A stretch of DNA of 64,000 bases, taken from assembly GCA_009746045.1 (NCBI GenBank), contig RPFO01000175.1, forward strand, positions 5,355,414 to 5,419,413, given 5' to 3'. Position 1 is the first letter of the stretch; every line of letters starts with the position of its first letter. This DNA is from Mesostigma viride. Its lineage: Eukaryota; Streptophyta; Mesostigmatophyceae; Mesostigmatales; Mesostigmataceae. The notes under the pieces are model-generated. The model was not told the origin of the DNA. It worked only from the letters and a program-made list of their open reading frames with translations, and made no database searches. Shown piece by piece: positions 230 through 33,579 of the stretch. A program made the position numbers and the translations under genes.

Positions 230-516
230 TTTTCTTGGAGGGGACTTTGCCCACTCGGCTGGAGTCAGTCCCTGCTCGAAGCCGCCCACCGAGCTGCGGC
301 CACGCCTGCTCCAGGCGAAGCTGCAAACCACCAGGAGGAAGGCGGTTTGTCGCGTCTGCGTGCCACAATCTCCGGCGCCACCATGGCGGCTGGCCACTCA
401 GCTTAATTTGGTAAAACCCAAATGAGCTGAGCTGATGTGCCTGCCTTAACTGCATGCCCTGTGGGGTGGGCGAGGACCTGTCCCATGATTCCCCCCCTCG
501 CTGGCGACCGGCCCCA
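230..516 (-). other. 3' region of the gypsy-like element
   Basis: Non-coding stretch after the pol stop codon. On the element's sense strand it opens with a purine run GAGGGGGGG (+ strand 489-498), which could be a polypurine tract priming plus-strand synthesis. That would leave about 260 bp for a 3' LTR. No matching copy was seen at the 5' end, so this is inference. Confidence 0.3.
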
Positions 517-3500
517 TCACGAAGACAGCGATCGTACCAAGACAAGGGCAGCGGTGACCGCAGTCAAGCTGCGGGAGGTAAACTGCGCAGCGGTGCACAC
601 TGGACAAAACCAATCCCCCTCCGGAATGCTGGTGACCATGGGCTGCAAGCACTGCATGTGCCAACCACAGTTACACTGATCACACAATAACATGGACTCC
701 GCCTGATCGACCCGGTGACAAACCTGACACTGGGCGTCCTTGACTCGGCGAGATGTGTGCGGTTGGAGGTCGTGGACCAAATTGGGCAGTGAGCAGGGAC
801 TGAGATTGCTGAGGTTGTCTGTCGTACGGCTCCCGTCGGCGCCCTCCAAAATTGCCACTCCCGATGGTTTGATAGCCACAATGCGCAAAATGGTGGGCCC
901 CGCCTCCACATCCAAAGTGTGCTTCAGCTGAGTGCGCAGGAAAACATACTGCCCTGGCCTAAACCGCAGCTGGCGAGCCATGTATGCGCCCCCCCGGCGC
1001 TGAGCGTAACGCAGGGAGTCCCTGTGCTGAGCAATGAACAAGTTGTTCATCGCGATGGGCATGACCTTCTTAAAAGTCTCTGCCCTGGCCAGCACCTCAA
1101 CCAAAAATTGCTGAGCGTTGTCGAAGGCCATGGGTTCGGGGTGCGCAACCTGTGCCTCCGTAGGCAAAAGAGGATTACGCCCGAACAGAAGGAAATACGG
1201 GGAGAAGGTAGCGAGAGACTCCTGGGGAGACATGCGATAACCCATGGCAATCCATGCCAACTCGCGATCCCACCTGGCCGACTCCGGCACCTGCAGGCTC
1301 CACTTGCGCAGCGCCTGCTTGACGGTCTGCACCAATCTCTCAGCCAAACCATTGGCCTGAGGATGCTCCCGAGAAGTGCGACGGTGATCAATAAGACATC
1401 CATCCAGCAACTCCTGGAACTCACCCCTGAACTCACCACCCTGGTCCGTGACTACCTCCGCGGGAGCCCCAAACCTGGTGATGATGTCTGCAAAATGCTT
1501 CGCTGTGGTAGCGGCATGCTTGTCAGCAATGGGGATCAACTCAACCCATTTGCTAAAGCTCTCCACGCATACCATGACATAGAGGTTGCCGTCAGGGCTC
1601 TCCTGAAACGGCCCGCACAGATCGACGTGCCAGCGATAAAACAAGCCCTTGATGGGAAGCGACATCAGCTCCTTGGCACCATGATCTGCGCTAAAGTTAG
1701 CCTTGGTTCGAGCACACGGGACACAGCTGGCCACTACCTGGGCCACTGTGTGTCGCATGTTATTCCACCAATAGCTGGTCCGTACGAGGCTGAGCGTGCG
1801 ATTGCCACCCAAGTGACCATACCGCTCGTGGTACGCCTGCACTATAGCAACGCGCTTGTCAGGCGGTGGGACGACCACCCTACGCTTGCCCAACAGCTTG
1901 TACAAAACCCCATCTTCCCAACCATAGGTTGCAGCCCTGTGCTGCACCCTGTTCAACTCCGTCGCCTTCTGAGCAGGAGTCCAATCGACTGGAGTAGGAG
2001 TCAAGACAGCACCCTGCACTTGCTCCAAAACTCGACCATCTAGCCAGATATCAGCGGTGTAGCAATCAGCAAGAGAGCTACGCGCTAAGAGAGCCTGCAC
2101 AGCGATCAGCTGCTGCAGAGAAGGATCAATGTCAAAGGACAGAGACCTACCCTCTTCCATAGCGCACACAGCTTTGGATGGCGTGAATGGCGACGGCCGC
2201 ACCGGGTCGTCGCTGATGCCGAAGTCCGCCACAGAGTACTCGACACTGCGCCACCACGCCTCCTCCTCATCGTCGGCCGCATACCCAGCAGCGTTCACAA
2301 AGACCACAGAACCCGACGAGCCCTCGGCACCCATGGCCCGGGCTCCAGTGTGGTCAACAGTGGTAGGCATGGCGTATCGGGATAGCACATCGGCGTTGAC
2401 ATGGTCCTTGCCGGCCCGATGCACAATGGTCATGTGGTACTCCTGGATAATCATGGCCCATCGGGCGAGCTTACCCGTCAGGTTGGTGTTGGTCATTAGC
2501 CACTGAAGCGGCTGGTGGTCTGTCACCAGAGTAAACACGCGCCCAACTAAATACGGGCGAAAGTGCTTGATGGCCCACACCACAGCCAGTGCCTCCCCCT
2601 CATAGGAAGAATACCGGCTCTCCGCTGGGTTGTTGCTGCGACTAGCATAAGCAATAACGTGCTCGCGCCCATCACCATCCTTTTGCGCCAAGACCGCACC
2701 CAGTCCTACCTTGGACCAGTCGGTATATAACACAAACGGCAAAGCATAGTCAGGGGCGCGCAGAATCGGGGCCGACGTGAGCTCCTGCTTGATTGTCTCG
2801 ATGGCGCGTTGCTGTGCGGGACCCCACGCCCACACGCACCCCTTCTTGAGTAACTCGGTCAAGGGCTTCACCTTGCTGCTGAAGTTCTCAATGTAACCTC
2901 GGTAATAGCCAGCCAAACCCAAATACGCCCGCACCCCTGAGACATCCGTGGGTACGGCGGCCTGCACAATGGATTCGACCTTGGCGGCATCAGGCGTCCG
3001 GCCACCCGGCACAATCTGATGACCAAGGAATGAGAGGGTCCGCTGGGCGAACTTGCACTTCTCAGGGTGCAGCCGCATATTATGCTCCTCGAGAGCCAAG
3101 CGAACCTGCTCCAAGTGCGCCAGGTGCTCCTCAAATGTCGCGCTAAAGACGATTACATCATCAATGTAACAAGCGGCGAAAGGAAGACCTGCAAGCACTT
3201 TGTCCATAGCTCGTTGGAAAACAGCACTAGCGTTGCGGTGCCCAAAGGGCATGCGCACCCACTCATACAAATTGCCGCCCCCCCAGAATGCAAGCTTCCG
3301 CTGATCCTCCGGCGCAACTGCGATCTGATGAAAGCCGCTACGCAGGTCCAGCGAGGACACAAACTTCACATGAGGAGATATCTTATCCAGGACATCATCC
3401 ACACGTGGCATGGGGTAACGGTCCACGGGTGTGTGTGCATTCAGCAACCGCAGATCGGTGGCCATGCGCATACCCGTCCATGCCCCGGTGATAGCGTCCT

Positions 3501-6500
3501 TCTTGGGCGCAACGACAACGGCAGCGGCATAGCTGGAGGAAGATTGCCTGATGATACCGGCATCCTCTAACTCCTTGCATTGCTCGGCTACAAAATCCAA
3601 CTCGGCCTGACTCAGGCGATGCTGGCGTCGGAACAAAGGGGTGTCAGTGTCCAATGGAACACGCATGGTCCCACCATTGAAACACCCCAGTTCATCACTT
3701 GTGAAAGCGAAGGCCCCCCTTGCAGTGCCTAGCCACTTTAGCATGGCTGAGCGCTGCGCATCAGAAAGGTGTTCGCCAATAGCCCAGGGGTGCGTATCCG
3801 CGGGATCACCCACAGCTACCGCATGTGCCTCAAGATGCGGCGCCCTAGCCGCATCGTCGTGGAACAAGGAAAAGGCTGCCACGCCTGGTGTGACACCCAC
3901 CGCCGGAGCCTCGCGTGCCGCACGGTGTATTACCCGATGCAGCGTGGGCTCGCCGGCCAGCACGGTGCTGGTCAGCAGGGCGGTCATGAGAATGATAGTC
4001 CACACCTGTCGCAGACGCCACCCCCATGCTGATGAAGTCCCCGTCGCTGCAGGGCGCTTCAGTTTGGCTGCGCGCGCCTCAACCTGCTGAGGCGGATTGG
4101 CTGGGGACGCCCCCCCAGACTGGCGCACGGCAACCGATGCAAGCAGCACATACCCGACCTGCAACACCGACATAGCCTGGCCTATCAAAGACCAGCGCTC
4201 ACTCTCGAGCACGCCCGGCAGCGCCGAGGCCCCGACATGAAAACCCATGCTGGCCTCACGAAATTCTGCGGGTGGCTGCACCAACAGACCGGTGGTAGTG
4301 TCCCAAACGAGACCCTTACCCCGATCACGGTATGCTGTCGACCCTTGGTAACTGACCAGGGTCGGCAGTGCACACATGGGGCTCCCGACCCGGTTGACGC
4401 GTGCATACGGTGGGCGATCCTCGCTATCCACCTTCTGCGTGACTAGGTGGGAAGGCAATGCTACCTCCGCAGACACACTCGGATGCTGCCTTGCTACGGC
4501 CCCCAAGACCGCCTGCACATCGGTCGCACACGCCACGTTGGTCCAATAGGCACGCAAACGATGCGTGAGCCCACCCAGCCCTGCGTTGTCACACACGATG
4601 GGCTCCCCCAGGAGTGCCACGATTGTAGCCCAGTCCTCCCGCACCGCCTGATGTGGGCTGTCACCCGCCACAACGTTCTCAAACAGATACGCAGGCGGAT
4701 GGGGCTGACGCGACTGCAACAGTCCCACCACACGCAACAGTTCCCAGAACAGCGCGCTACGCGGATCGGCTAGCCCCCGCCCTTGCCCTGCCTGGCTCAG
4801 GCCCTGGCACTCCCAACCCGCAATTACCAAGTCGATGGCATGATGCCTGCGCAACAACTGCTGCACCTGCACCTCACCGATGGCTCGGATATCTTGAGGA
4901 CATTCCCCAAACGGGTCACGCCATGCTGATGGCGGAAACTGCGCGGGATACTCTCGCGACAACACGCCACAGTGACTGAAGTACACCTGACGCGCCTTGT
5001 GCGATGGCTCTACCGCGATGAGTTTACGGCACACGCCGCCTGCGGCCAAAAAGCCTGCAATGCCCCCTCCGATCCCCGCAAACAGTTCCAACACTACCGC
5101 ACCCTTGGCAAAATCAGGGGCCTGCGGTAAGATTGCAGCAGAAAAATTACCTTGGGCCTCCGAGACACCCGGTTGCAGCAAAGTGAGGCCATGGCTGGCC
5201 ATCTGAGGAATGGTGATGACGGCTTCAGTTACCCGCTTGCGCATAGCCAGCTGCCGCGTGGACGTCACAGCATCCAGCGACCACTGCGTGCGCATCTTGG
5301 CAATGCTCGCCGTTGGCTGGGGCAGCACCGTCCGATGCTTGTCCCACGCCGATGAGCCCGCCGCCCGTACCTCCACCATGCTGACCTCCACCACGCCCGC
5401 AGCCGCGGAAGGGTTGAGGCGTGCAGCCCCGGCTGAAGAACTGAAGCATGAGACCGGCACGCTGGCCCGCTTCAGGCCAGCCCCATCCCAATCAGGGATG
5501 TAAGATGCCTCCTCCGCCCTATAGTCCACCTGAACCATGGCGCGAGCAAGGACATCCACCCCGAGTAGTGCGGAATATCCACACTTGTTGACCACCAGCG
5601 CATACGCGGACACGGTGGTCATGCTAGAGGCGCGCAACGGATTGAAAATCACGTTGACTTTAACCGCCGTCATAGCGTACGGCTTACTAGCCGGACCCTG
5701 CCAACCTGACACAGACACGGGGCTTTCCACTAAGCCACCGTTCTCGTAGGTCAGGTTCAGCATGGTGGCCAAGTCCGTGCTGATGACTAGCGGCTGAGCA
5801 CCGCTATCAAGCTTGACTGCGCCAACCAACGGACATGTCACCATGTCGCTCCATACATCTCCACAGGCTCCAACTGCTTGGAACGCCATGGACGGCTCAC
5901 CATTGGGGTATGGAACCACCGTGGGAACCTGGGGGACTGCACTAGTGCGCTGCTGGCTACTTGTGCTGACCACTCCCGCTTGCACCACGGGCACTGCGGC
6001 TTCTACCGGCTGGCGCCCGTAGGTGACGGACTCAGAATTGCGCAAGGTGCGCACATCATGCCCATCTGCGAACAACTGGATCTCGGACACAACCGACCCC
6101 AGCCACTCAACCCCCTTCTGCCCGAAGGTGTCGACCACCTGCCGTGCTGAAAACATGGGTACGTCCACAATGAACGGCATTGGGTACACAGGCGCCAATC
6201 GCCTACGCTGCTCCAGCCCAGCAGGGTTCGCATGCTCAAAAGCAGATTGCACCCCAGCCAGCGGCATGGAAAAGGACGCGGGCAACTGCCCGGCAGGCAA
6301 CATGGGTGCCTGCTGAAAAGAAAGCGGGCTGCGTGCCTGCTTGCCTTTGGTAGCCTCCGCAGCGTTGATCTCGACGTCACCCGGCATGGGCGCCCAGAAT
6401 GGGTCCTCCCGGTACACCGTCTCGAATTGGTTGGGGGGCGCCGTCGCCTCCTCACCATGCTTGATGGCAGCCACCTGGGCTTCCATCGAGTCGGTCTTGC

Positions 6501-6555
6501 CCGCCATCTCGGCGAAGTGGACCGTCTTGATGCCCGCGGCTGGACACTTGTTCAT
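517..6555 (-). CDS. pol: Retrotransposon Pol polyprotein: protease, DNA methyltransferase, RT, RNase H, integrase, PHD
   Basis: 2012 residues from ATG 6555, and the frame stays open upstream to about 6700. There it includes a CCHC knuckle (CFLCDKDGHLSREC) on the N-terminal side. Domains in order: retropepsin-like LDSGAQ near residue 248; C5-cytosine methyltransferase about 480-810; a hydrophobic stretch near 850; reverse transcriptase with YIDD near 1130; RNase H with YTDWSK, an E in YEGEAL and TDHQPL near 1275-1350; integrase zinc motif HERYGH and CVPC near 1565-1620; integrase core with D, D, E in WHVDLCG, VTDQGGEF and NGLAERL near 1640-1745; PHD finger 1943-1987. All catalytic residues I looked for are present and the frame is uninterrupted, so this copy looks young. 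Translation probably reaches pol by a frame change from gag. Confidence 0.92.
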   Translation of the reverse strand: MNKCPAAGIKTVHFAEMAGKTDSMEAQVAAIKHGEEATAPPNQFETVYREDPFWAPMPGDVEINAAEATKGKQARSPLSFQQAPMLPAGQLPASFSMPLAGVQSAFEHANPAGLEQRRRLAPVYPMPFIVDVPMFSARQVVDTFGQKGVEWLGSVVSEIQLFADGHDVRTLRNSESVTYGRQPVEAAVPVVQAGVVSTSSQQRTSAVPQVPTVVPYPNGEPSMAFQAVGACGDVWSDMVTCPLVGAVKLDSGAQPLVISTDLATMLNLTYENGGLVESPVSVSGWQGPASKPYAMTAVKVNVIFNPLRASSMTTVSAYALVVNKCGYSALLGVDVLARAMVQVDYRAEEASYIPDWDGAGLKRASVPVSCFSSSAGAARLNPSAAAGVVEVSMVEVRAAGSSAWDKHRTVLPQPTASIAKMRTQWSLDAVTSTRQLAMRKRVTEAVITIPQMASHGLTLLQPGVSEAQGNFSAAILPQAPDFAKGAVVLELFAGIGGGIAGFLAAGGVCRKLIAVEPSHKARQVYFSHCGVLSREYPAQFPPSAWRDPFGECPQDIRAIGEVQVQQLLRRHHAIDLVIAGWECQGLSQAGQGRGLADPRSALFWELLRVVGLLQSRQPHPPAYLFENVVAGDSPHQAVREDWATIVALLGEPIVCDNAGLGGLTHRLRAYWTNVACATDVQAVLGAVARQHPSVSAEVALPSHLVTQKVDSEDRPPYARVNRVGSPMCALPTLVSYQGSTAYRDRGKGLVWDTTTGLLVQPPAEFREASMGFHVGASALPGVLESERWSLIGQAMSVLQVGYVLLASVAVRQSGGASPANPPQQVEARAAKLKRPAATGTSSAWGWRLRQVWTIILMTALLTSTVLAGEPTLHRVIHRAAREAPAVGVTPGVAAFSLFHDDAARAPHLEAHAVAVGDPADTHPWAIGEHLSDAQRSAMLKWLGTARGAFAFTSDELGCFNGGTMRVPLDTDTPLFRRQHRLSQAELDFVAEQCKELEDAGIIRQSSSSYAAAVVVAPKKDAITGAWTGMRMATDLRLLNAHTPVDRYPMPRVDDVLDKISPHVKFVSSLDLRSGFHQIAVAPEDQRKLAFWGGGNLYEWVRMPFGHRNASAVFQRAMDKVLAGLPFAACYIDDVIVFSATFEEHLAHLEQVRLALEEHNMRLHPEKCKFAQRTLSFLGHQIVPGGRTPDAAKVESIVQAAVPTDVSGVRAYLGLAGYYRGYIENFSSKVKPLTELLKKGCVWAWGPAQQRAIETIKQELTSAPILRAPDYALPFVLYTDWSKVGLGAVLAQKDGDGREHVIAYASRSNNPAESRYSSYEGEALAVVWAIKHFRPYLVGRVFTLVTDHQPLQWLMTNTNLTGKLARWAMIIQEYHMTIVHRAGKDHVNADVLSRYAMPTTVDHTGARAMGAEGSSGSVVFVNAAGYAADDEEEAWWRSVEYSVADFGISDDPVRPSPFTPSKAVCAMEEGRSLSFDIDPSLQQLIAVQALLARSSLADCYTADIWLDGRVLEQVQGAVLTPTPVDWTPAQKATELNRVQHRAATYGWEDGVLYKLLGKRRVVVPPPDKRVAIVQAYHERYGHLGGNRTLSLVRTSYWWNNMRHTVAQVVASCVPCARTKANFSADHGAKELMSLPIKGLFYRWHVDLCGPFQESPDGNLYVMVCVESFSKWVELIPIADKHAATTAKHFADIITRFGAPAEVVTDQGGEFRGEFQELLDGCLIDHRRTSREHPQANGLAERLVQTVKQALRKWSLQVPESARWDRELAWIAMGYRMSPQESLATFSPYFLLFGRNPLLPTEAQVAHPEPMAFDNAQQFLVEVLARAETFKKVMPIAMNNLFIAQHRDSLRYAQRRGGAYMARQLRFRPGQYVFLRTQLKHTLDVEAGPTILRIVAIKPSGVAILEGADGSRTTDNLSNLSPCSLPNLVHDLQPHTSRRVKDAQCQVCHRVDQAESMLLCDQCNCGWHMQCLQPMVTSIPEGDWFCPVCTAAQFTSRSLTAVTAALVLVRSLSS
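595..729 (-). other. PHD finger at the Pol C-terminus
   Basis: Eight ligands in C4-H-C3 order: CQVC, CDQC, a C-x2-H pair in CGWH, and C in MQCL, followed by DWFCPVC. PHD fingers bind histone H3 tails. In chromoviruses a chromodomain occupies this place after integrase and steers insertion, so a targeting role is inferred by position. About 25 further residues follow before the stop. Confidence 0.85.
4130..5115 (-). other. C5-cytosine DNA methyltransferase domain inside Pol
   Basis: Transfers methyl from S-adenosylmethionine to cytosine C5. Motifs in order: I, VLELFAGIGGG (SAM binding); II, a glutamate in IAVEPSHKA; IV, AGWECQGLSQAG with the catalytic cysteine; VI, LFENV; VIII, THRLRAYW (R-x-R kept); a late segment ending in GQAMSVLQVGYVL that corresponds to motif X. 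The cysteine is preceded by Glu where most family members have Pro. The target-recognition stretch between VIII and X is about 80-100 residues, short as in DNMT3-like or prokaryote-like enzymes. The domain lies between protease and RT, so it would be released by Gag-Pol processing. Substrate and activity are not known from sequence. Confidence 0.88.
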
Positions 6556-8333
6556 CAGGTGCCACTTCGTGTCTGCCCCATGCGGCTTCGTGCAGCGGCT
6601 TGGACACTCGCGACTAAGGTGCCCATCCTTGTCGCAAAGGAAGCAGCCCGATTTGCGCGCATCCGTCCTAGTACCCGTCTGTGAGGACGTGCCCCCCCAG
6701 CTCGCGTCGGGGCGGCAGCGTCTTTGTTGCCGCCAGCGGCGTTACCCTGGGTTGCATCATGCGATGAGGCGTTGCGAGACCCCCCTTGGTTCCTGCTAGC
6801 ACCGTGGCCGCCTTGCGGGCGCGCTTGTCTTGTGGCAGACGACTCACCCGACTTGGCCTTGGTCAGCGCGTCGACCTTGGCCTGCAGCTCGGCCACCACC
6901 GTGCTTACCGAGATCCGGCCTTGCGCGTGTCGTCGCATCATGGCCCTGACCTCAATGCACAGTGACCGCAATCGCCACGGCTGGCCGTTGGGCGGCGTGG
7001 GCAGCTCCATCTCCTTGGAGCCTAGCGCTTGCAGCCATTTCTGACACGCCAGCTTTTCGGACCAGTCCTCCACTTCGCCGGCGAACTCCATGAGGCGCTC
7101 GTAAGATTGCTCCGGGGTTTCACCCTCGGCTATCTTGAAACTGCGCCACTCACGCTCTGCCTTGATGGTCTCCACCGGGTATTCCTGGCGAAGGAGGCCC
7201 CACAGTTCCTCGGCAGGGTCGACACCATACATGATGTTGTCATAGTCGGGCTGGCCACGCCCGTCGAAGCCGAACCACACGTCCGTGTGACGCGTGTACA
7301 GCGAGACCTCTCTCCACTGCTCCACCAGCCTAGCCACTCGCCTCAGCGTAAGGCCGTGAAAGAAAAAATGCATGTTGTTCATCACAAACTCATGCATTAC
7401 AGCGCCTTGCGTAGTCATGTATTGCAGATCAATCCATGACTTGTACGCGTTGTAGGCCTGCGCCAGCGTGGCCAGATTGCCGGTTGTGGAGAACTTCTCG
7501 CGCATGTCCACCCGTGGTAGGGTGGGCATCTTCGCGCCTTCCGGTATGAGGCGCACCCTTTGCGGGTACTGCACCCCATCGGCATCCTCCGGCGGTCGCT
7601 GAGCTGCGCGTCCCTGCGCCAGCGTGCTTGGTCGTGCTGCCTCCCGTACTCGGAAAGCCAGCGGCGTGGTTATGTCCTCCATGGGCGGAATGCGCCCGAT
7701 TGGCACACTTGACCACCGTGCAGTCGACCCGCCGGTCAGCGCCCCACCGCCTCGCCCAAACGGAATTGAGGCCCCGCCTGGCAGCATGCGTCCTGGTGCA
7801 CCCCTGTGTGGGTCCATCGCGCGCGCCAGCCCTGCCCCGTTCTCCTCGTGCAATCCGTCTCGCGCTTGATCGAAAGGCAGGCGCCTGGGCGCCAGCGTAT
7901 ACTCGCCCCGTGGCTGACCATCCGCCTCACCAAGCAAGTCGTGTTGGGTTAGCGACCCAGCCAAAACCCCCGGTTCCATCGAAGCCCTTCCCGCCGCATT
8001 ACCTGAGGTTGGCGGCTGGTCCCGCTCCCTCGGCTCCGCGGCAACACCACTGGGGCCCGGCATCGATGCCTGCCCGTCCCATGGTGTGGACTGCAGATGA
8101 CGACCCTCTACGGCCACCAATCTGTCGGTCACTTCCCGCATCTGCAGCGCCAATTGCTGCTGCAACTGTTGCGACTGTTGCTGCATCTGCGCTTGCATCT
8201 GCGCGAACAGCGCCACCATACTCAGCGGCGCTTCTTGGTCGCGACTCTCACCCACTGCGGGTACGGCGGGAGGAATCCCGCCATTCGACCCCGGAGCGGA
8301 CGTGTCGGCATCTGCTCTATTTGCATCTGCCAT
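6555..8333 (-). CDS. gag: Retrotransposon Gag
   Basis: About 592 residues from ATG 8333, chosen because CGAGCCATGGCA is a strong eukaryotic start context and upstream in-frame starts are weaker. The N-terminus is Q-rich with a likely coiled coil (residues 30-75), then a Pro/Gly/Arg-rich region. A capsid-like domain lies near 330-450 (WRSFKIAEGETPEQSYERL, then CQKWLQAL), matching the Retrotrans_gag pattern. The tail is Arg-rich and in this frame has no zinc knuckle: the CCHC box lies in the -1 frame from about 6690, joined to pol. The switch probably occurs around a G7 run (+ strand C run 6691-6697). It may be programmed frameshifting or a sequence error. Confidence 0.8.
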   Translation of the reverse strand: MADANRADADTSAPGSNGGIPPAVPAVGESRDQEAPLSMVALFAQMQAQMQQQSQQLQQQLALQMREVTDRLVAVEGRHLQSTPWDGQASMPGPSGVAAEPRERDQPPTSGNAAGRASMEPGVLAGSLTQHDLLGEADGQPRGEYTLAPRRLPFDQARDGLHEENGAGLARAMDPHRGAPGRMLPGGASIPFGRGGGALTGGSTARWSSVPIGRIPPMEDITTPLAFRVREAARPSTLAQGRAAQRPPEDADGVQYPQRVRLIPEGAKMPTLPRVDMREKFSTTGNLATLAQAYNAYKSWIDLQYMTTQGAVMHEFVMNNMHFFFHGLTLRRVARLVEQWREVSLYTRHTDVWFGFDGRGQPDYDNIMYGVDPAEELWGLLRQEYPVETIKAEREWRSFKIAEGETPEQSYERLMEFAGEVEDWSEKLACQKWLQALGSKEMELPTPPNGQPWRLRSLCIEVRAMMRRHAQGRISVSTVVAELQAKVDALTKAKSGESSATRQARPQGGHGASRNQGGSRNASSHDATQGNAAGGNKDAAAPTRAGGARPHRRVLGRMRANRAASFATRMGTLVASVQAAARSRMGQTRSGT

Positions 8334-8390
8334 GGCTCGAGTCTGCGCTCGCGTCAGTGGCATGCACCAGCTGACCGATGGGCAAAACAA

Positions 8391-9724
8391 GAACCAACAA
8401 GCCTAGGTTTCGCTGAGAAGAAGCAACAACCAAAGGCTTTATAACAGGTGTCAAGGATAACGACTCGACTAGCCTGCCAGAAAAAGACAAGAGCCAGCAA
8501 ATTCTGGCTAGTTCTATTTTCTTAAAATCTGTCTCAAGACACTTCCTTTACAAACTGTCAGCCAGGCCGTTCCCTGTACTGCTGATGGTTGCTAAACACT
8601 AAAGCCAACGTCTTGGCTTCGAACAGAAGGAAGCAGACTACCGGGTAGTCTCTTCGAGTAAAGAAAGGAGGGCTCTCAGCCGAGGACAAGGAACTGTCCC
8701 TCGTGCCTGATAACCACCTTATTGCCTCCCCTGCTATAGAATAATGCTTTCAAACACACACTTTGCACAGTCTGATGATGAAGCCGCACATGCGGAATTT
8801 ATTGAGAAAGTTAATACAATTACAACACGTTGATAGTCTCAATATCGATGCACTCCATGCTCACGAGCCCGCAGTTAGGCAGCGCTCCATGACATGCTAC
8901 CGGCCTTGCTCCCAAGGAAAGGGAGAAACACGAAGGCCACTAACGAGAGACTCGAAGAGACTACACGCTGCGTGAGAGTCCTCTTCGACTATGAACCAAA
9001 CCATTCGTCATGCCACACGCATGACACACGCCACACTTGTCAGTCCAGCCAGGAATGCCAAAACTATCTTGCTGCCTGAACCATGCGAATAGAAACCGCA
9101 TTCCAGTTGCCGTCCTGGCTTTCTACCACACATGCCAACAAAAGCAGGAAGGCATCCCGACAAATCTAAATTGCTACCCTGTTGCCGATCTCATCTCCTA
9201 GAGGCTCCGGCATTTCTGTCCCTGGGAATGTCCGACATTGAGTCACGTCCAGCAAGGTCGAAGCATAATATCCTTCAGACAATCTGCACGCTCACACCTT
9301 GCGTGTGAGTGGCCCAGCAAACATTGCGTCTAATCGTTCCTTTCTAGAAGAAATCCCTTTTTAGGGCTGCCAGCGATTTCGCATTCATTCCAGCGATCTG
9401 GCTCCGCACCGCAAATTGTCCTTTTCCATTTTCTGTCCAGTCCTCATAACGTTGACCCGCTATTCTACACCACAAAGACACCTGGCCTGTCAATAGCCTC
9501 GGCGCTGTTGAAGTCCAGCAGTACAGCTTCAGCTCCAGCTGTCCACTAACACGCGTATGATCCTCTCGACGCTGCACACTTGTGCTGCCGTCCGCTCAAG
9601 TCAGTGCTGCGCGCCCAGCTGTGCCTGGCCCGGCGCGCGTGCACGTACACTTTCGTCCGCTCTTATGCTGCAAGTGCTAGTGTCCCCCCCCGGTCACTAG
9701 CCTTTGTCGAAAATGCGTAGAAGA
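8391..9724 (-). other. 5' region of the gypsy-like element
   Basis: About 1.3 kb without a supported gene, more AT-rich than gag-pol. It should contain the 5' LTR and leader. A 13 bp inverted repeat (TAGTCTCTTCGAG at 8646-8658 and its complement at 8949-8961) is present. No convincing primer-binding site complementary to a tRNA 3' end was recognised. Confidence 0.35.
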
Positions 9725-9725
9725 C

Positions 9726-12084
9726 AAATTCCTTGCGCACGTCACCGGTCTTGTGCATAGTCGGCGCCCGGATGACATAGCGCGCGTCCGTGACAGGTTC
9801 GTGCCCGCCGTGAGCAGGAGTGCATCGCAGAAGAGAGGCACATGGCTCGCGCCGATGATGACAACGACAACGGCCTCATCGGAGATGAAGAGGACATCGA
9901 CGTCGACGAGAACGGCGAACAGCTGCCGACCTTCAGGACTGCGAGGTGCCGGGCCCGCATCTGCACTTGGCAAACGCAGGTCGTCCGCCTCCGGCTGCAG
10001 GGGCTCCGGTTCGACCGGACGTGCAACTGCTGACGTCGTCGAGATCAAGTCATCTCAGCCGGCACTGCGCCAGCAGACCATGGCCGCGGCTGTCGGGCTG
10101 GGAAAGCCCGCCATCGACAAGCTGCTTAATTGCAAGGGGTTTATGTCGGCCGGTATCCCATTCAACGTTGTGAATAACGCGCATATTTCAAAGCTGCTCC
10201 GGTCCGCCATCAGCCGAGGAGGGGTGCAGTACCTGGCGCCAAGCTCTCAGACCATGCGGACCCGGGACGCACCCCTCGTTGCCAAGGACTTGGAGAGGGA
10301 CGTCAAGGAGAAGACCCAGCTGGCCACAGGCACGGGAGGGACGTTCATCACGGATGGCTGGAAAGACTGCAGTCGCGAATCTCACATCATGAACGTCTTC
10401 CATCTGCCCACCTTTACATACTTCATCGGATCCGACAACGTGACGGGGCAGGTGAAGTCTGCTGAATTCATGGCAGACCTGGCATGCAGAGCCTCACATC
10501 TTGGCCGTCGGCGCATCGAACGTCGTGCAGGTGATTACGGACACATGCACAACATCCATGGAGAACATGAAGAAACTCCTCGAGGCATCAGTTCCCGCAC
10601 ATCATCATCTCCAGACCTGTGCTGTGCCCACTGCCCACTCGCTGGACCTGTGTTTCGAGGACATCGGCAAGGAGCCAGCGGTGGACAGGGTCCTGACACA
10701 AGTGAACACGGTGGTGGTATTCGTGCTGGGGCACGAGAAGATCAACAGTTTTTTCATGGGCCTGGACAAGAGCGCCAAGACTCTCAAGAAGTACGCCGAC
10801 ACCCGCTTTGGCACCAGGTATATCGCTGTGATTTCATGAGTTATATCCACAATTTGCTACGCCCTCTTTTTTCTCATCATCTTCTTCGCTTAATTCTGCT
10901 AGTTTATCATTGCTTTAATTGAGACACAATCATACTGTTGTTGGCGTGTTACTAATTCCATTTTCACAGTTGTGACGATGGCATCATTTTTTTCATGCAT
11001 GGCATTGCTGCTTCAGGTTTTACTCGGCGGAGAGCGTTCACGACGCCAAGACCCGGCTCATGGTCACCTTCGAGGACGAAGAGTTGGTGAAGTATGCCGA
11101 GGCGCAGCGGTGGTGGCCCGCGTTCAAGCAGGTCCAGGATATTGTGGGCAGCCCGCAGTTCTGGTCCGGCGTGCGCATGCTCGTTGACATTTTCAAGCCC
11201 ATGAAGCTCGTGCTCGATCAAGATTTTCGACAGCGACAAGCCAGCAACAGGCGAGCTGTACTACATGATGTACGAGCTCCTCAAGGCTGTGCAAGACATT
11301 CGCGGGCTGCACAAAGACCTGTCCAAGCAGCTGCAGGTCCTCGTGCGCAGGCACTGGGATTACATGCATTCCATCATCCACGCCGCTGGCTACGCGCTCA
11401 ATCCCAAGTACTGGGGCCCTGACCACGCACAATATACCATCAAGGAAGTGAGTAAATGGCTAAGTAATTCTTATTTTTCTTCATGGCACGCTATTTGTTA
11501 TTAGTCCATGGCTAATTTTGGCTTTTGAGCAATGTGCGGGAAATTGGTATTGAAGGGCTGAAGCCTTCGTTGTCAGTTCCTGAATAGACGTCCTCTAACC
11601 TCTTTGCAATCCTTAATTGCACTGCCACTATTTCCCCCATCGTACTATTATCCCTCTCCTGCTCAGGTGACAGATGGCCTCCACGCGTGCATTGACAAGA
11701 TTCATCTGGGCGACAAGGCAGCCTTCGACCTGGCCATCAAGCAGTACGAGCAATACACCGACCAGCAGGGTGCATGCATTTGCACAGAGCGACTGCAAGA
11801 GGCAGGCACAGGCGCCGGGCATGGTGCCGTACCAGTGGTGGCGCACCTGGGGCGGCTCCACGCCCGAGCTGCAGGAGGTGGCGATCAAGGTGCTGGCCCA
11901 GCCGGTCTCCTCGGGCTCTGTCGAGCCGCGTGTCAACAGCGAAGCCGGCTGGATCAAGTCGCTCAAGCGAAACCGCCTGACGCATGTCAACCACAACCGC
12001 CTCATCTACGTGCACCACAACCTCCGCGCGATTGACGCCATCAAGGATTACGACGATCAGAACACGGTTATTCCATGGGAGTAA
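9726..12084 (+). pseudogene. hAT transposase, main body (DUF659 and hAT C-terminal domain), decayed
   Basis: Continues the BED finger, then a DUF659-like domain (GIPFNVVNN, LAPSSQTMRT, FITDGWKD) near 10150-10480. It ends with a hAT dimerisation domain (YQWWRTWGG, then KRNRLTHVNHNRL and VHHNLRA) near 11830-12040. Two GT-AG introns fit the frame: 10818-11016 and 11448-11666. The gene is dead or badly sequenced. Frameshifts lie near 10495, near 11220 (extra base before IFDSDKPATGEL) and near 11778 (apparent 4 bp TGCA duplication). The gypsy insertion also splits exon 1. The stop is TAA at 12082-12084. Terminal inverted repeats of this hAT copy were not identified. Confidence 0.82.
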
Positions 12085-16879: not shown

Positions 16880-17103
16880 ATGCCGGCTGCCATGATGATC
16901 TTCCCCCCTATGTCTGCGCCTTTAGGTAGGTGCTGGAATACATAGTGGTGTGCAGGTGCACTTTGTGCACCCAGAGCAGGTGTAGTTTTCACCCTACTCT
17001 TGTGCACAGTCCTGAAGTAGCCCAGAGTGTATAATTAAGAAAAGCCATATATACCCCTTCTCAGGGATATGTGCTACAAATACTCCCAACCGGGAGTTAT
17101 GTT
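16880..17103 (+). mobile_element. LINE 3' end with variant terminal hairpin
   Basis: Plus-strand 3' UTR block ending in the stem-loop 17083-17098 (ACTCCC, AACC, GGGAGT), then GTTATGTT, directly followed by the pentanucleotide array. Confidence 0.7.
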
Positions 17104-17990
17104 CCCATTCCATTCCATTCCATTCCATTCCATTCCATTCCATTCCCTTCCCTTCCCTTCCCTTCCCTTCCCTTCCCTTCCCTTCCCTTCCCTTCCCTTC
17201 CCTTCCCTTCCCTTCCCTTCCCTTCCCTTCCCTTCCCTTCCCTTCCCTTCCCTTCCCTTCCCTTCCCTTCCGTTCCCTTCCGTTCCCTTCCCTTCCGTTC
17301 CCTTCCGTTCCGTTCCCTTCCGTTCCGTTCCGTTCCGTTCCGTTCCGTTCCGTTCCGTTCCGTTCCGTTCCGTTCAATTCAATTCAACTCAATTCAATTC
17401 AATTCAATTCAATTCAATTCAATTCAATTCAATTCAATTCAATTCAATTCAATTCAATTCAATTCAATTCAATTCAATTCAATTCAATTCAATTCAATTC
17501 AATTCAATTCAATTCAATTCAATTCAATTCAATTCAATTCAATTCAATTCAATTCAATTCAATTCAATTCAATTCAATTCAATTCAATTCAATTCAATTC
17601 AACTCAATTCAATTCAATTCAATTCAATTCAATTCAATTCAATTCAATTCAATTCAATTCAATTCAATTCAATTCAATTCAATTCAATTCAATTCAATTC
17701 AATTCAATTCAATTCAATTCAATTCAATTCAATTCAATTCAATTCAATTCACTGATTCAATTCAATTCAGTTCAATTCAATTCAATTCACCTCACCTCAC
17801 CTCACCTCACCTCACCTCACCTCACCTCACCTCACCTCACCTCACCTCACCTCACCTCACCTCACCTCACCTCACCTCACCTCACCTCACCTCACCTCAC
17901 CTCACCTCACCTCACCTCACCTCACCTCACCTCACCTCACCTCACCTCACCTCACCTCACCTCACCTCACCTCAATTCAATACCTGAAAG
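17104..17990. repeat. Pentanucleotide array of about 870 bp in five successive blocks
   Basis: Blocks follow one another: CATTC, CCTTC, CCTTC mixed with CGTTC, AATTC (about 400 bp), and CACCT (about 180 bp). The 5 bp step is kept across the block borders almost without exception. Long open frames through it are a by-product of the repeat. It directly follows a LINE 3' hairpin. Confidence 0.95.
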
Positions 17991-18040
17991 GCCTGGCATG
18001 GGGTGGAAGATGATTAAATTAAATTAAATTATAACATGAC

Positions 18041-23743: not shown

Positions 23744-25315
23744 TTAAATAAATATGTTCGTTGACGACTGCAACGGGTGATCAGTTTCGGGCCACGCATG
23801 CGTGATCTCCCCTGCAACACCGGCAACTACGGGGGGGCCGGGGGGTAATTAACTGGGAGCCCGCAGTTGCGCCTTATTCCAGCCGCTGTCACGCTGTGAT
23901 TGTCTACGTCGGTTCCATGGTGGCAAGTCACTCCGGTCAGTTGCATGGTGGCAACTGTTATTCCTTCCGGCCTCACGGAGCGCAGCCTGCCTTAACCTGA
24001 CACCAGCCTGGCGGGGGCTAGAGGGGGTGCTGTCGCCGTGCTGCAGGGCGGCCTATTTATAAAGCGGCATCCGCCTTGCCATGTATCTCCCTGCCCTCTG
24101 GGTGTGCCGGCGGCCTACCGCGTGAGCTATACGTCGGCATCTCGCGCAGGATGGGTGGCGTACAGTCGTCAGCTGGAGGACTGTTCAAAATCGGCGGGCA
24201 GCCTGGGCCGGCAGGAAGAGGGGGGAGGTGAGTGGTGCATCGGCAAGGGGCACTGGACCACGGAGACCCATCTCTAGCCATCGAGGAAATAAGCCTCGTT
24301 CGAGGAAGGAATTGCGCTCACGGATCTCCTCCTGGCCATGAAGAGCGGCCATGCCCCCGTGCTGTCAGCGTAGCTGTACCAAGGCGACTGATGTCGGCAA
24401 GTGTCACTGGGTCGCCGCTTTTTTTTTTTCTTCTGATACTGGGATATTATATCCTGGCTCTCTCTTTGATAGTAGGATTTTCTTGGATGCCGCGGCCCCT
24501 GAACGGCCAAGGATTAGGCAACATTCGCCTTGTTTGACACAAGGGCCAATGTTTGGGATTAATTGTACATATTGTATACGCATTAGGCTGATCCAGGGAA
24601 GGGCTACTTCAGTTTACGAATTATTAAGTATACCCCGGGCAGTGTTTATATATATATATTTCTTTTGTTTGCATATACCCCAGTGGTGTTTGGAGTTAGT
24701 GAGCCGGGGTGCCAGCCTGTTGCTGGCCGGCAGCCTGGAGCCCATTCAGATGCAGAGGCCCTAGTAAGTAGTAGCTGCCGGCTGGCCTGCTGCTTCTTTT
24801 GTCATCCAGTGAAGTAACCGTCCACGGCTCCAGGCAGCCATAAGCCAGAGGAGAATTACCACTGTGTGCCATGGCACAGCGTGCCCACCCACATTTTGCC
24901 AGTTCTGCCAGAGCCAGGACTAGCTGTTGGTACTTTAAGTGAGCATTTGATCATATATGTGGCGTGGCCGCACCACATGTGGCTGACAGTTTCATGCTGA
25001 TGGTGTGTACTGTATTCGTTCGTTGTAGTGATTCTAATTCACTCATGGACTTGTGACACAAATTGTATATTAATTTCAAAGGGACAACCAACTTCATTGT
25101 TATGGAGAACAAGCTGGTTTCACCATTGTGAATATATGTGATCGAGACAGCTAAATTGATGGCTTGCAATTTTGACCTAGTTACTTGATCCCATCGGTAC
25201 GTTTTATCAATTTATTTATTTACACGTAGATGGCATATGGGTTCTATTGTAGCTACGTTCGAGTTCACCCAATAGTGATGCTTGCTGTGTGGCAGCGCTG
25301 TGTGTCTACATTCAT
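23744..25315. other. Non-coding DNA
   Basis: No gene recognised on either strand. Short T-runs near 24419 and a TA run near 24650 only. Confidence 0.4.
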
Positions 25316-26119
25316 TCATTCGTCCCCGTCCGTCCGTCCGCCCGCCCGCCCGCCCGCCCGCCCGCCCGCCCGCCCGTCCCTCCCTCCCTCCCTCCCTCCC
25401 TCCCTCCCTCCCTCCCTCCCTCCCTCCTCCCTCCCTCCCTCCCTCCCTCCTCCCTCCCTCCCTCCCTCCTCCCTCCCTCCCTCCCTCCCTCCCTCCCTCC
25501 TCCCTCCCTCCCTCCCTCCCTCCCCTCCCTCCCTCCCTCCCTCCCTCCCTCCCTCCCTCCCTCCCTCCCCCTCCCTCCCTCCCTCCCTCCCCTCCCTCCC
25601 TCCCTCCCTCCCTCCCTCCCTCCCTCCTCCCTCCCTCCCTCCCTCCCTCCCTCCTCCCTCCCTCCTCCCTCCCTCCCTCCCTCCCTCCCTCCTCCCTCCC
25701 TCCCTCCCTCCCTCCCTCCTCCCTCCCTCCCTCCCTCCCTCCCTCCCTCCCTCCCTCCCTCCCTCCCTCCCTCCCTCCCTCCCTCCCTCCTCCCTCCCTC
25801 CTCCCCCTCCCTCCCTCCCTCCCTCCCTCCTCCCTCCCTCCCTCCTCCCTCCCTCCCTCCCTCCCTCCCTCCCTCCCTCCCTCCCTCCCTCCTCCCTCCC
25901 TCCCCCTCCTCCCTCCCTCCCTCCCTCCCTCCCTCCCTCCCTCCCTCCCTCCCTCCCTCCCTCCCCTCCCTCCCTCCCTCCCTCCCTCCCTCCCTCCTCC
26001 CTCCCTCCCTCCCTCCCTCCCTCCCTCCCTCCCTCCCTCCCTCCCTCCCCCCTCCCTCCCTCCCTCCCTCCCTCCCTCCCTCCCTCCCTCCCTCCCTCCC
26101 TCCCTCCCTCCCTCCCTCC
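25316..26119. repeat. Polypyrimidine tetranucleotide array, about 800 bp
   Basis: Starts ATTC, passes to GTCC, then GCCC (about 40 bp), then TCCC for about 740 bp with scattered TCC or CCCC slips. The pure purine/pyrimidine strand bias makes triplex or H-DNA possible. The repetitive Pro/Ser/Leu frames across it are not genes. Confidence 0.95.
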
Positions 26120-26214
26120 CGCGCGCGCGAGAGAGAGGATGGAGGGAGGGGGGGAGGGGCCCTCCCTCCCTGGCTCATTTATTTATGAGCGGCTCGGTGG
26201 GACCTCCTACACGC

Positions 26215-26365
26215 GCTGGACGACGACTTTCAAGACCCTGGCGCAGCAACAACGGCGACGGGAGCTGTGGCCACCCTAATTCCAGCTCCGGCAAGCATGC
26301 AGCAGGGAAGAAGCTTGCCGGTTTATTGGAGGGGGGCTGCCATCTACGTTGACCACACCTTTACA
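26215..26365 (+). pseudogene. LINE ORF1 C-terminal relic
   Basis: Matches the end of the ORF1-only family (GGCGCAGCAACAACGGCGAC, then CGGTTTATTGGAGGGGGGCT), carrying stops and indels. Confidence 0.65.
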
Positions 26366-29726: not shown

Positions 29727-32265
29727 CGACGCTCGCGGCCCCGCGGCTCCGCGGCTTAGCAGTGGGATCTGCCTAACTCCCCTTCCCGCCCCTTTGCCTT
29801 CGCAGCCCTCGGGCTGTCGGAGAGAGAGCACGGGTCGGCAGTGAGCCAGGTTCGCCCCGCCTCGCGCGGCCGCCTCCGAAACCTCCTCAGACTGCACGCA
29901 TTTCTTATGCGTGCAGACGCAGACTCATTCTACCTGGCCACCCGAGCCAACCGTCGGCGTCGCCTCGACGCGTTGGCAGGAAGAATCGAAACGGTGATTG
30001 AAAGCATAAGTCCCCAACCCGCCCCCCCTACCCCACCACCTCCACCCCCACCCCCATCACCACCCTGCTCCATCTCCGCCCCCACCCCCGCCTGCACCCC
30101 CCTTTTCGGTCAACGCGCGCCCTTGGTCATCGCCACCTTCAACGCCCGCACGCTCCAGCCCGACGCTGACCGCTGTCACTGCCTGCGCAGTGACGACTGT
30201 CAGTGCCATCGAGTCTCCAATCTTATTGGTTTCTGCATCGACAATAATATCGCCATCCTGGGAATCCAAGAACACAGGCGCACTGCATCGGCCCGCGGAT
30301 CAACTGCCCTTGTTGCTGACGACATCGACGGCTGGCGGTTCTACTACGGAGGCGGCGACGGCACCGGGAACGGGGGCGTCGGTCTCCTCTGCTCCCCGCT
30401 CGCCGTACGCCACATGGGCGAACCCCAGCTGGTCAACGCTCGGCTCCTCGTGGCCACTTTTCATTCGATGGAGGGCCACTCGACCTACGCCCTGACGGTG
30501 GGCGTTGGTTACGCACCCCACTCCGGCCACCCAGAACAAGACCGCAAGGACTTCTTTGCAGCGCTGGAGAACCTGGCGAACGGCATCCCTGGTCGCAACT
30601 ACCTCGCTCTGCTGCTGGACGCCAACGCCACGCTACCACCGGGTACTGGCGGATGTCAGCACGCCCCCAACGGTACGGTCTCCAATGCCAACACTGAACT
30701 TTTTGCTGATTTGCTTACGACATGCGATTTGGTCACTGCCAACACTCGCTTTCCACATAGTCCAGATGCTTTGGTCACACACACCTCGCCAACTGGCACT
30801 GAACGCTGCATTGACTATGTTGTAATGCGCAAGCGTCATCAAGGATCTGTACTAGCTGCTCGCTCGCATGTGATCCCCCTGGTGCGCTCCGATCATCGCA
30901 TCGTCACCGCCCGCATCCGCCTGCGATTCCCCTCGCCCTTTCGTAAGCACGTGGCACCACCTGATTTGCGCACACTTCAGTTGCTCGAGAAATCTGACGA
31001 CGCTCTGGAGGACTTCCCTGAAAAACGCGCCCACAAGCGCGCCGCAGAGGCGTTCGTCGACGCGCTGGACATCCCGGCCAGCCACGCCCAGCTGTTCGCT
31101 GCCGGCCCGGCATCGGCCCTTCGGCACCTCGCTGACAAGCTGCCCGCGGCCGGGGCCCTACTGCCCCCCGCCGCCCGCCCCGCTTCACCAGCCTGCACCG
31201 GCTCCCCGCCGTCATCCAGGCCCGGCAAGCCCTGCGCGACAACAGCGACCCCGCCCGCTACGCCCGCCTCAAAGCCGATTACCACTCGGCCATCCGGCAG
31301 GCGACCAAGGAGCAGGAGGACCTTCATGTCCGCGAGTACTTCGCCCACCTCAAGGACCAGCACGGCAAGTACGCCTGGACCCGCCTGCGTCACGCCCAAC
31401 GGCCCGCCGGCGGCGCGCAGCCGGCGCCGCGGACGCTCTCTGGCTCACCGCAGCAGCAGCTCGACCAGTGGTATTCCTCCCAGTCCCGGCTGCTCGGCGC
31501 CCCCCCGCCGCCTCCGCCGCTTGGCCCTCTGGCGGCCGCACGCCTGGCAGTAGCACCGGCGGACGTCCCTGCGCCGCCCACGCCGCCCGCCGCTGAGCAG
31601 GACTACACGTACCCAGCCCTGACGGAACCCCTGGCCGACCCCAACGAGCTCCCGCCGTTCACCGAGCTCGAGCTGAGCACCGCCGCCAAGCAACTCCGCT
31701 TTTATGCCGCCGTTGGACCTGACCAGCTCCCAGCCCCGGTGATTAAGCTGACGGCGCTCACGGGGTTCCTGCTTGACGTCTGCAACCGGATCCTGCTTGC
31801 CGACGCGCCGCCGATTCCTGAGTGGCAGCACAGCTACCGTATTATGCTGTACAAAAACAAAGGTTCCCCTGACGACCCCGCCAACTACAGAGGAGTATGC
31901 ATCCAGAGCGCCGCACTTAAGTTGTTCATGCGCATGATCCTCAACCGCCTTCGTTCTGCTCTCGACTGTCACCTTGGGGAAAGTCAAATGGGCTTCCGTC
32001 CTGGGCGCAACACCGTCATGGCCATCTTCGTCGCGCGTCGCCTCTTCGAGGAAATCGCTCTCCTGCAACCTGGTGAGTTTCCTGCAATCCTGATCTTCGT
32101 CGACTTCATCAAGGCTTTTGATTCTGTCCTCTGGGACGCTCTATGGGCTGTACTTGCTCGCGCTCGCGTCCCCACTCCCCTGATTACCGTCATCCGCACG
32201 CTGTATGAGGGGTCGACCACTTCGGTGCGCACTCAACACGGCATTACCCCGCCATGCCCACTGCA

Positions 32266-33579
32266 CAGTGTACAGCCATACGCAATACGCAATCATACGG
32301 GGCCCATGGGTATGGTGTATAATACGCCATACGGGGTATATAATACGCAAATCATACGGGGACTCTTGAAAATGCTGTTTTTTGCATGGTTCAGGGGGTT
32401 CTTCAACATTCTGACCAATCAGGCATGTTTTTTTTTTGTTCTTGCAACACCACTTGCCTTTATTTAACACATCATCACATAATATTGCCGTTGCCGTCGC
32501 TGCATGCCTACAAATACAAGCATTGTACATCTGTTGTTATTAATAATGTCTGTAAATAGCACACAGTCAGTCGGCCAACTTGCCAAAAGTAATAAGACAT
32601 TCTGCCAGAAACAGACATCTTGCCTACTCGTGGTAGGCCACCATGCAATATTGATCTACATGAAGCAAGAATCCATACGGGCTGCCAACAATGTGGCTAG
32701 CGTGCAGGATACCATGCATGCCAGCAACCCGACCCAGCTTCCCTAAACCATTAACACATATGGTACGGTGGCTGGCTAGCAGCAGCCTGCATGGCTAAAT
32801 AAGGCATTTATGTGCATCGCGAGTCACACCAAATATACCCCGCAGCCTGCGACGTAATGCCTCCGGCGGCCTCTTGCACTCGCTCACTCTTGCCTCCTTC
32901 GCGTACGTAGCGCCCATGATATGGCGGGTGCTAGCCTTGCTCGGGTGGTAGAACCCGAGAATTTTGCATCCAAAAGTGTGCACGTCACTTAGCTTGTAGT
33001 TACCTGTCGGCTGCCATTTCTTGTTGAGAGTCTGTTCTTTCACGATGTGTGTCCAGACAGTCTCGAATACGGCCTGCATCTCGTCGGCCCAGTCATCATT
33101 GTGTTCCATAGACCCACACCATCACCGTCGCTAGCCATGGTGCCTGGATGTCAATATTGTGCTACGATTAAATGTTAGGTGCCAGATGCGCGCCCTTGTT
33201 GGCAGACAACATAACTTCGTCACCTAATTTCCTCGTCCTTCGTCTCCTAGACCCTAGTCCGACACGCAGCAATCTGCAGCAATGCACGTACAGTCGTACA
33301 TGCACGGCCAGCTTGGCACCTGGATGTGGTTTATTTGTCGCGGAGTTCCAGGTCGCCTAGATACAGTCTAGTTCCGGCTCCACGTGCCGTCCAAAATGAT
33401 GCCAGAAGCTACTTCGAACGCGGTTCATACGCAAAAAATACGCAAAAAATACGCAATACGCAAAAAATACGCAAAAAATACGCAGTGCGTATTTTTTTTC
33501 CCATTTTCATACGGAAATCTTGCGTATGGCGTATAATACGCGCCATACGGCGTATTATACGCCGTATGGCTGTTCACTG
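32266..33579. mobile_element. Non-autonomous hAT element inside LINE RT
   Basis: Terminal inverted repeats CAGTGTACAGCCATACG (32266-32282) and the complement of CAGTGAACAGCCATACG (33563-33579), 16 of 17 matching. It is flanked by the 8 bp duplication CCACTGCA (32258-32265, 33580-33587). A CAGTG terminus and 8 bp duplication are hAT hallmarks. Subterminal regions are dense in ATACGC and CATACGG, possible transposase-binding sites. No transposase is encoded; the one ORF of note is at 32795-33109 on the minus strand. Confidence 0.88.
32795..33109 (-). other. Open frame of 104 codons inside the hAT element, function unknown
   Basis: Begins MEHNDDWADEMQAVFETVW, contains KWQPTGNYKLSDVHTFGCK, ends in a basic stretch. 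I recognise no family. It could be a captured host or transposon fragment, or chance. Confidence 0.25.

Follow-up and report, generated by a model that had tools for sequence, protein, structure and literature searches.

Retrotransposons that encode a cytosine DNA methyltransferase (MTase) of the Dnmt3 type have been published from dinoflagellates (SymbioDIRS-Dnmt3) and from the streptophyte alga Klebsormidium nitens (KnitGypsy-Dnmt3) (PMC5890265). According to a figure legend of that study, KnitGypsy-Dnmt3 has DIRS-like repeats, and its MTase is reported to be under purifying selection (ratio of non-synonymous to synonymous substitution rates, Ka/Ks, <0.2); for SymbioDIRS-Dnmt3, methylation activity was demonstrated in yeast. 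According to a general sentence in another paper, green algae contain gypsy and DIRS elements that encode Dam and Dcm (PMC6338049), and a publication from 2025 attributes element-borne DNMT3 to streptophytes and dinoflagellates (PMC12344493). Here, we analysed an MTase-bearing retrotransposon in a stretch of 64,000 bp from Mesostigma viride (contig RPFO01000175.1; C224:5355414-5419413 in our numbering), hereafter called the window. An original prediction for this locus, made from the letters alone, had correctly named the dinoflagellate and streptophyte precedents. We found that it adds one more member to the KnitGypsy-Dnmt3 kind and is not a one-off capture.

As far as the open-access literature was searched, and apart from the general sentence in PMC6338049, the spread of such elements in chlorophytes, the two positions of the MTase, its ECQ loop and the catalytic losses described below are apparently new. 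What had been two or three isolated reports becomes a large family open to comparison, in which the MTase has two positions, the catalytic loop occurs in two versions and some members have naturally lost the catalytic residue, and across such elements the need for the chemistry, and its purpose, becomes testable. For M. viride, a genome assembly and publicly available bisulfite reads (GSE123852, PMC6947507) exist, so that the methylation of individual copies can be looked up.

A Dnmt3-like MTase in a Ty3/gypsy Pol frame

The prediction of an intact MTase within a gypsy-type Pol, between protease and reverse transcriptase (RT), held up: a single frame of 2,074 codons carries the domains recognised by Pfam, among them a DNA_methylase match at Pol 550-690 (E 1e-10), and the protease motif LDSG lies at Pol 311. 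The order of RT, RNase H and integrase, and the gypsy type of all three in Pfam and in the Pol tree, assign the element to Ty3/gypsy. No tyrosine recombinase was detected by Pfam in Pol or gag, the two frames searched; a DDE (rve) core is present instead. The window element resembles KnitGypsy-Dnmt3, in which a Dnmt3-type MTase likewise lies in the frame of a Ty3/gypsy Pol with DDE integrase, and differs from SymbioDIRS-Dnmt3, which shares the Dnmt3-type MTase in Pol but uses a tyrosine recombinase. In the K. nitens protein KFL_009030040 (P0036), which is likely one of the published KnitGypsy-Dnmt3 copies, the MTase also precedes RT; P0036 differs in showing no PHD finger, although this record is partial, and in reading PCQ where the window has ECQ in motif IV. 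The chromatin reader mentioned in the prediction corresponds to a PHD finger at the C-terminus of Pol (E 1e-8), and its zinc ligands are kept in the related proteins P0001, P0002 and P0004.

Judged by profile and predicted fold, the window MTase is Dnmt3-like. Its best matches in both comparisons are DNMT3A and DNMT3B, and it retains motif I, the motif IV cysteine, the Glu-Asn in motif VI and the motif VIII RxR. It differs from the two enzymes in its low identity (22-23%), in ECQ as opposed to PCN, and in that Pfam found neither ADD nor PWWP in the window Pol and gag. The profile score of DNMT3A (79.3 bits) leads that of a bacterial MTase (76.8 bits) by 2.5 bits only, and phage matches (20 of 299 records listed) cover 29-65% of the window MTase at 24-39% identity. 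Element MTases and cellular references were split from three phage rows with a support of 99, with two cellular references only (DNMT3A and DRM). The predicted fold favours DNMT3; a phage or bacterial origin of the MTase is still conceivable.

Boundaries, split repeats and copies in the host genome

The span of 517..8333 given by the original prediction proved too short. Comparison with further copies places the element at 348-9795, while 8333 is merely the second ATG of gag, the first being at 8363 (Table 1). The unit has the termini TGTC...GACA, and 4-bp target duplications flank all four insertions in which both unit ends are visible. They read AACC at the window copy and CGCG at C224:1965928-1975375, both in the form A-coding-B, GAAC at C1:11956427, which has the same form with an internal deletion, and CATA at C1:8917507, which has the full form A-coding-B-A-B. 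In the latter copy, GC links B to A inside a GACAGCTGTC palindrome. The C133 copy is arranged as B-A-coding-B-A and C111 holds two tandem units, one of them interrupted. In the first C111 copy, about 9 kb of other DNA lie inside the MTase at unit position ~5163-5167, with five unit bases repeated at both edges.

Direct long terminal repeats (LTRs) were sought around the window copy and none were found; the copy is bounded by the outer edge of repeat A on one side and of repeat B on the other. The LTR pair is missing because the repeats of this family are split as A-coding-B-A-B and the window copy has the form A-coding-B. The element is not an LTR retrotransposon in the strict sense, and its repeats are DIRS-like. 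In this it resembles both KnitGypsy-Dnmt3, as far as the published legend tells, and SymbioDIRS-Dnmt3, which has the same split arrangement; it is the copy at C1:8917507 that carries the full form, whereas the window copy itself does not. A 3' truncation of the window copy was ruled out, since both of its ends are common with C224:1965928-1975375 and the target duplications of the two differ.

Table 1 Features of the element in the window (unit and Pol numbering follow the element orientation).
Feature	Position in window	Strand	Remarks
Whole inserted unit, A-coding-B form	348..9795	-	9,448 bp, TGTCACGG...GCGACA; aligned with copies at C224:1965928-1975375, C111, C133 and C1
Target-site duplication, 3' side of element	344..347	.	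GGTT (+ strand), read as AACC along the element
Repeat B, 143 bp, unit 3' end	348..490	-	unit 9306-9448; doubled in A-coding-B-A-B copy; basis C1:8917507 and C113 copies
Pol frame, 2,074 codons	517..6741	-	open reading frame, no stop
PHD finger	595..729	-	PF00628, Pol 2005-2049, E 1e-8
Integrase: H2C2 zinc binding and DDE core	1360..1869	-	PF17921, Pol 1625-1681; PF00665 (rve), Pol 1702-1794
RNase H	2437..2826	-	PF17919, PF17917; Pol 1306-1435
RT	3013..3507	-	PF00078 (RVT_1), Pol 1079-1243
C5-cytosine MTase, Dnmt3-like by profile and predicted fold	4096..5109	-	Pol 545-882; motif IV ECQ, VI ENV, VIII HRLR
Retropepsin-like protease, approximate bounds	5512..5844	-	LDSG at Pol 311; aligned to M. 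viride model P0023; no Pfam match
gag frame, 615 codons	6555..8402	-	first ATG 8363; different frame from Pol; no Pfam match
CCHC zinc knuckle	6598..6648	-	Pol 32-48; zf-CCHC E 0.0018, narrowly below Pfam cut-off
Repeat A, 1,140 bp, unit 5' end	8656..9795	-	unit 1-1140; doubled in A-coding-B-A-B copy C1:8917507
Target-site duplication, 5' side of element	9796..9799	.	GGTT on + strand

An identical frame of 2,074 amino acids (aa) occurs on two further contigs, C111 and C133, with a DNA identity of 99.9%. That the window frame arose by an assembly join or by chance is practically inconceivable, as these two contigs carry the same frame, a target duplication flanks the window copy and homologous fusions exist in other species; we ruled this explanation out. 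A profile search placed the window MTase type at 21 sites in the genome by our own count, window included. The 11 copies that were read all contain the MTase, but had been selected by it. A related MTase type, as judged by score and profile range, occurs at 37 places, and the three examined more closely share 65-67% identity with that of the window. Three comparisons between the two multi-copy subfamilies gave ratios of non-synonymous to synonymous change (dN/dS) of 0.10-0.14 at saturated dS, which agrees with the purifying selection published for KnitGypsy-Dnmt3, here seen between subfamilies. Among named MTases, the closest are two gene models from M. viride, one with 67% identity over 64% of the query and the other with 63% over 42%; to each other they are 97% identical over 96 residues. 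The fusion of protease and MTase also appears in the M. viride EukProt model P0023, with 44% identity over Pol 261-737, though this model may stem from the same assembly.

Two classes of relatives in green algae

The set of relatives comprised 150 proteins, namely all protein matches and the window; the underlying homology searches scored the 7,999-8,000 candidates sharing most words, and in one search 120 of 686 matches were listed. RT and MTase occur together in 77 of the proteins, RT without MTase in 46, and 27 are fragments. Two classes can be told apart by domain order. In class A (22 proteins, P0037 by a weak match) the MTase stands before RT, whereas in class B (55 proteins) it stands between RNase H and integrase, and this variation of domain order between related elements is a further likeness to SymbioDIRS-Dnmt3. 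Besides the window, the named proteins of class A comprise K. nitens P0036 and two from Closterium; those of class B come from Chlamydomonas, Monoraphidium, Haematococcus, Pleodorina, Gonium, Pseudoscourfieldia and Chromochloris. We take the former to be streptophyte algae and the latter to be chlorophytes. Class B elements such as Chlamydomonas CHLRE_09g398141v5 (P0004) have RT, RNase H, integrase, PHD finger and an MTase of the same clade in common with the window, but differ in the placement of the MTase after RNase H and, in P0004, in the lack of the catalytic cysteine.

Pol trees were built from the 111 of 150 proteins in which RT, RNase H and integrase were of adequate length and in order; 88 of these entered a tree with supports from the Shimodaira-Hasegawa-like approximate likelihood ratio test (SH-aLRT). 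In this tree, all 74 rows with MTase, K. nitens and window included, and five rows without it form one clade (SH-aLRT 99). Such elements had been called still rare in the original prediction, which does not fit the 74 of 79 rows of the window's own Pol clade that carry the MTase. Three of the five remaining rows start 139-185 residues before RT, too near to judge, and P0068 and P0106 show no MTase. Class B, together with two MTase-less rows, is a single clade (99) nested within the MTase clade, with K. nitens as sister (98), so that K. nitens groups with class B in Pol and not with the window. FastTree supports on all 111 rows were 0.73 for class B and 0.997 for class B plus K. nitens.

Placing the MTase itself in a tree, a step proposed for the locus at the outset, gave one clade of element MTases against DNMT3A and phages (99). 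Class B lay on one side of a single branch (99.5), corresponding to one change of position, in a tree that left out the long-branch rows P0092 and P0114 and the DRM reference; with these three included and rows <230 residues dropped, class B requires two changes. Considering Pol and MTase trees jointly, one capture followed by one move is the simplest reading. That class A and class B took up related MTases independently appears doubtful, as class B is one Pol clade inside the MTase clade with K. nitens as sister, and the element MTases form one clade with class B on one branch side after the exclusions named. Points in favour of independent uptake are the different MTase positions of the two classes, the composition of the MTase trees, which contain no green-algal cellular Dnmt3 or ChloroDNMT so that a host gene between A and B is conceivable, and the weak correlation of MTase and RT-RNase H distances within class B (0.34, as against a strong 0.86 in class A; 67 rows, with P0092, P0114 and rows below about 230 residues excluded).

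We tentatively propose the following history, which is possible rather than probable. A single ancient capture would predate the split of streptophytes and chlorophytes; the MTase would have been kept and would have shifted once within Pol, leaving its place ahead of RT for one between RNase H and integrase. Its loop would have switched from PCQ to ECQ, and certain chlorophytes would retain it as a catalytically dead domain. The elements would replicate in a DIRS-like manner yet use a DDE integrase at the B-A junction, giving both repeat-free and repeat-bearing insertions.

Among the relatives, P0067 is a class B Pol protein labelled by its source as a metagenome-assembled genome of a Minisyncoccia bacterium, and is probably misbinned algal DNA. 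2A-like D(V/I)Ex(N/H)PGP motifs occur in Pol proteins of the family (P0002 at 852 and 927, P0114 at 1242 and 1305, P0123 at 10 and 1056) and are a possible ribosome-skipping device. A transmembrane-like segment before RT was dropped as a candidate feature, as it was seen in 2/21 class A, 14/48 class B and 1/37 proteins without MTase, with the window below threshold.

Possible functions of the element MTase

Our favoured reading, which we hold to be rather likely, is that of a retrotransposon of the KnitGypsy-Dnmt3 kind whose packaged MTase methylates the element's own complementary DNA (cDNA), whose PHD finger steers insertion and whose integrase cuts the B-A junction. Methylation of the own cDNA is the best guess given the position in Pol, the kept catalytic residues and the activity of SymbioDIRS-Dnmt3. 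The MTase would be made as part of Gag-Pol, be packaged with RT and integrase, and methylate the cDNA during or just after reverse transcription. A new copy would then arrive pre-methylated, and might either be shielded from attack as foreign DNA or be rapidly silenced at low cost to the host. The host-evasion or self-silencing role raised in the original prediction is possible. The PHD finger, located C-terminal to the integrase, would read histone tails of the target and thereby steer insertion, and in chromoviruses it is chromodomains that steer insertion. The GACAGCTGTC B-A junction in circles or tandem forms would serve as the integrase substrate, giving TGTC...GACA insertions with or without a second A-B.

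Several observations weigh against this reading: (i) In yeast, no methylation was obtained with the MTase of the Klebsormidium gypsy element, an outcome that the authors of the test call inconclusive (PMC5890265). (ii) CpG depletion was not found in the element, with an observed/expected ratio of 0.85 compared to 0.80 in the whole window. (iii) Recent copies of the second subfamily have dN/dS values of 0.41 and 0.77 (dS 0.02), and at so few differences constraint is not visible. (iv) The window copy lacks the second A-B. (v) Six of the seven readable copies, the window among them, have gag and Pol in overlapping but separate frames (the window and nine other copies were compared), and a canonical slippery heptamer for programmed -1 frameshifting was not found in the overlap; in the seventh copy, gag continues into the MTase within one frame, and zinc knuckle and MTase share a frame in 8 of 15 relatives examined. 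The difference in frame may be programmed or reflect decay; unless frameshifting is programmed, it may leave the window copy non-autonomous.

Further points against the favoured reading come from the MTase itself. Motif IV of the window MTase reads ECQ, where PCQ or PCN is usual, and thus lacks the proline before the catalytic cysteine. The residue at this position is Glu in 68 of 104 rows and Pro in 20, the remainder being other residues or gaps. A comparison set from prokaryotes and phages had Pro in all 118 open reading frames (ORFs) scoring >30 bits (110 distinct) and Glu in none; it comprised one ORF per fetched locus, with 35 loci from a scan of viral contigs and the best 80 of 213 from a scan of prokaryote genomes, and the scan patterns behind these 115 loci allowed both Glu and Pro. 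This set served for the comparison of scores and of motif IV. Moreover, the catalytic cysteine is replaced in 6 of 62 class B rows, among them Chlamydomonas, Pleodorina, Gonium and Pseudoscourfieldia, and a seventh row is gapped there. All six still match the MTase profile and keep the domain, and catalysis is therefore not always needed.

These data would suit an MTase kept for a non-catalytic reason such as S-adenosylmethionine binding, polyprotein folding or particle assembly, with the chemistry weak or lost, as would the motif VI Glu, present in only 51 of 62 class B rows, and the shift of position in Pol without loss of the domain. We nevertheless regard this as unlikely, since the window and most rows retain the cysteine, the Glu-Asn and the RxR. 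In addition, across the rows that bear the cysteine, the MTase tree requires no fewer than 11 exchanges between Glu and Pro (57 rows with Glu and 23 with Pro, four of the latter being references; motif columns were kept in this tree), as expected if both work. Following this argumentation, the repeated exchange suggests that the change from Pro to Glu is tolerated, and perhaps functional.

That the MTase modifies RNA, such as the transcript of the element itself, is very improbable. Enzymes of the Dnmt fold with RNA substrates exist (DNMT2), but the best fold and profile matches are the DNA enzymes DNMT3A and DNMT3B, with no DNMT2 among the 50 profile rows and 50 fold rows listed. In its favour, RNA methylation was raised in the literature for LINE-type elements (PMC5890265).

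Finally, the MTase could act in trans, with the host genome (at target chromatin or at defence genes) and not chiefly the element's cDNA as its substrate, and in concert with the PHD finger. Among Pol proteins, 13 of 22 in class A and 53 of 55 in class B carry a PHD finger as well as the MTase. Genome-wide 5-methylcytosine in M. viride, with CG most abundant (PMC6947507), and the authors' speculation that the altered methylome of Symbiodinium is a response to element MTases (PMC5890265) point in this direction. However, the methylome of K. nitens resembles that of land plants although such elements are present (PMC5890265), and the MTase sits in Pol, which leaves a role in trans improbable and methylation of the element's own cDNA as our preferred reading. 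Pol products are, as a rule, packaged.

Besides the element family, the M. viride genome contains further multi-copy C5-MTase types, with frames of 364, 313, 309 and 322/325 aa at 10, 17, 7 and 8 places by our own count; these may be parts of viruses or of DNA-transposon-like elements. An example of the 364-aa type is L120 1324-2415 (C35:17404-18288), with nine more places of equal score; the five phage matches listed for it, of 812 records, are 31-32% identical over 75% of the frame. Within the window, a frame at 9681-10922 overlaps the 5' edge of the element and has a weak DUF659 match (E 1.7e-4, below the cut-off), which we take to be hAT-transposase-like. Two frames with RT matches (31136-32467 and 33400-34161) probably represent one broken non-LTR element. 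At 17016-18027 and 25212-26352, there are long tandem stretches of low complexity in which several frames are open, and the region 54725-64000 holds long frames, with Sacsin-domain matches in two of the three scanned.

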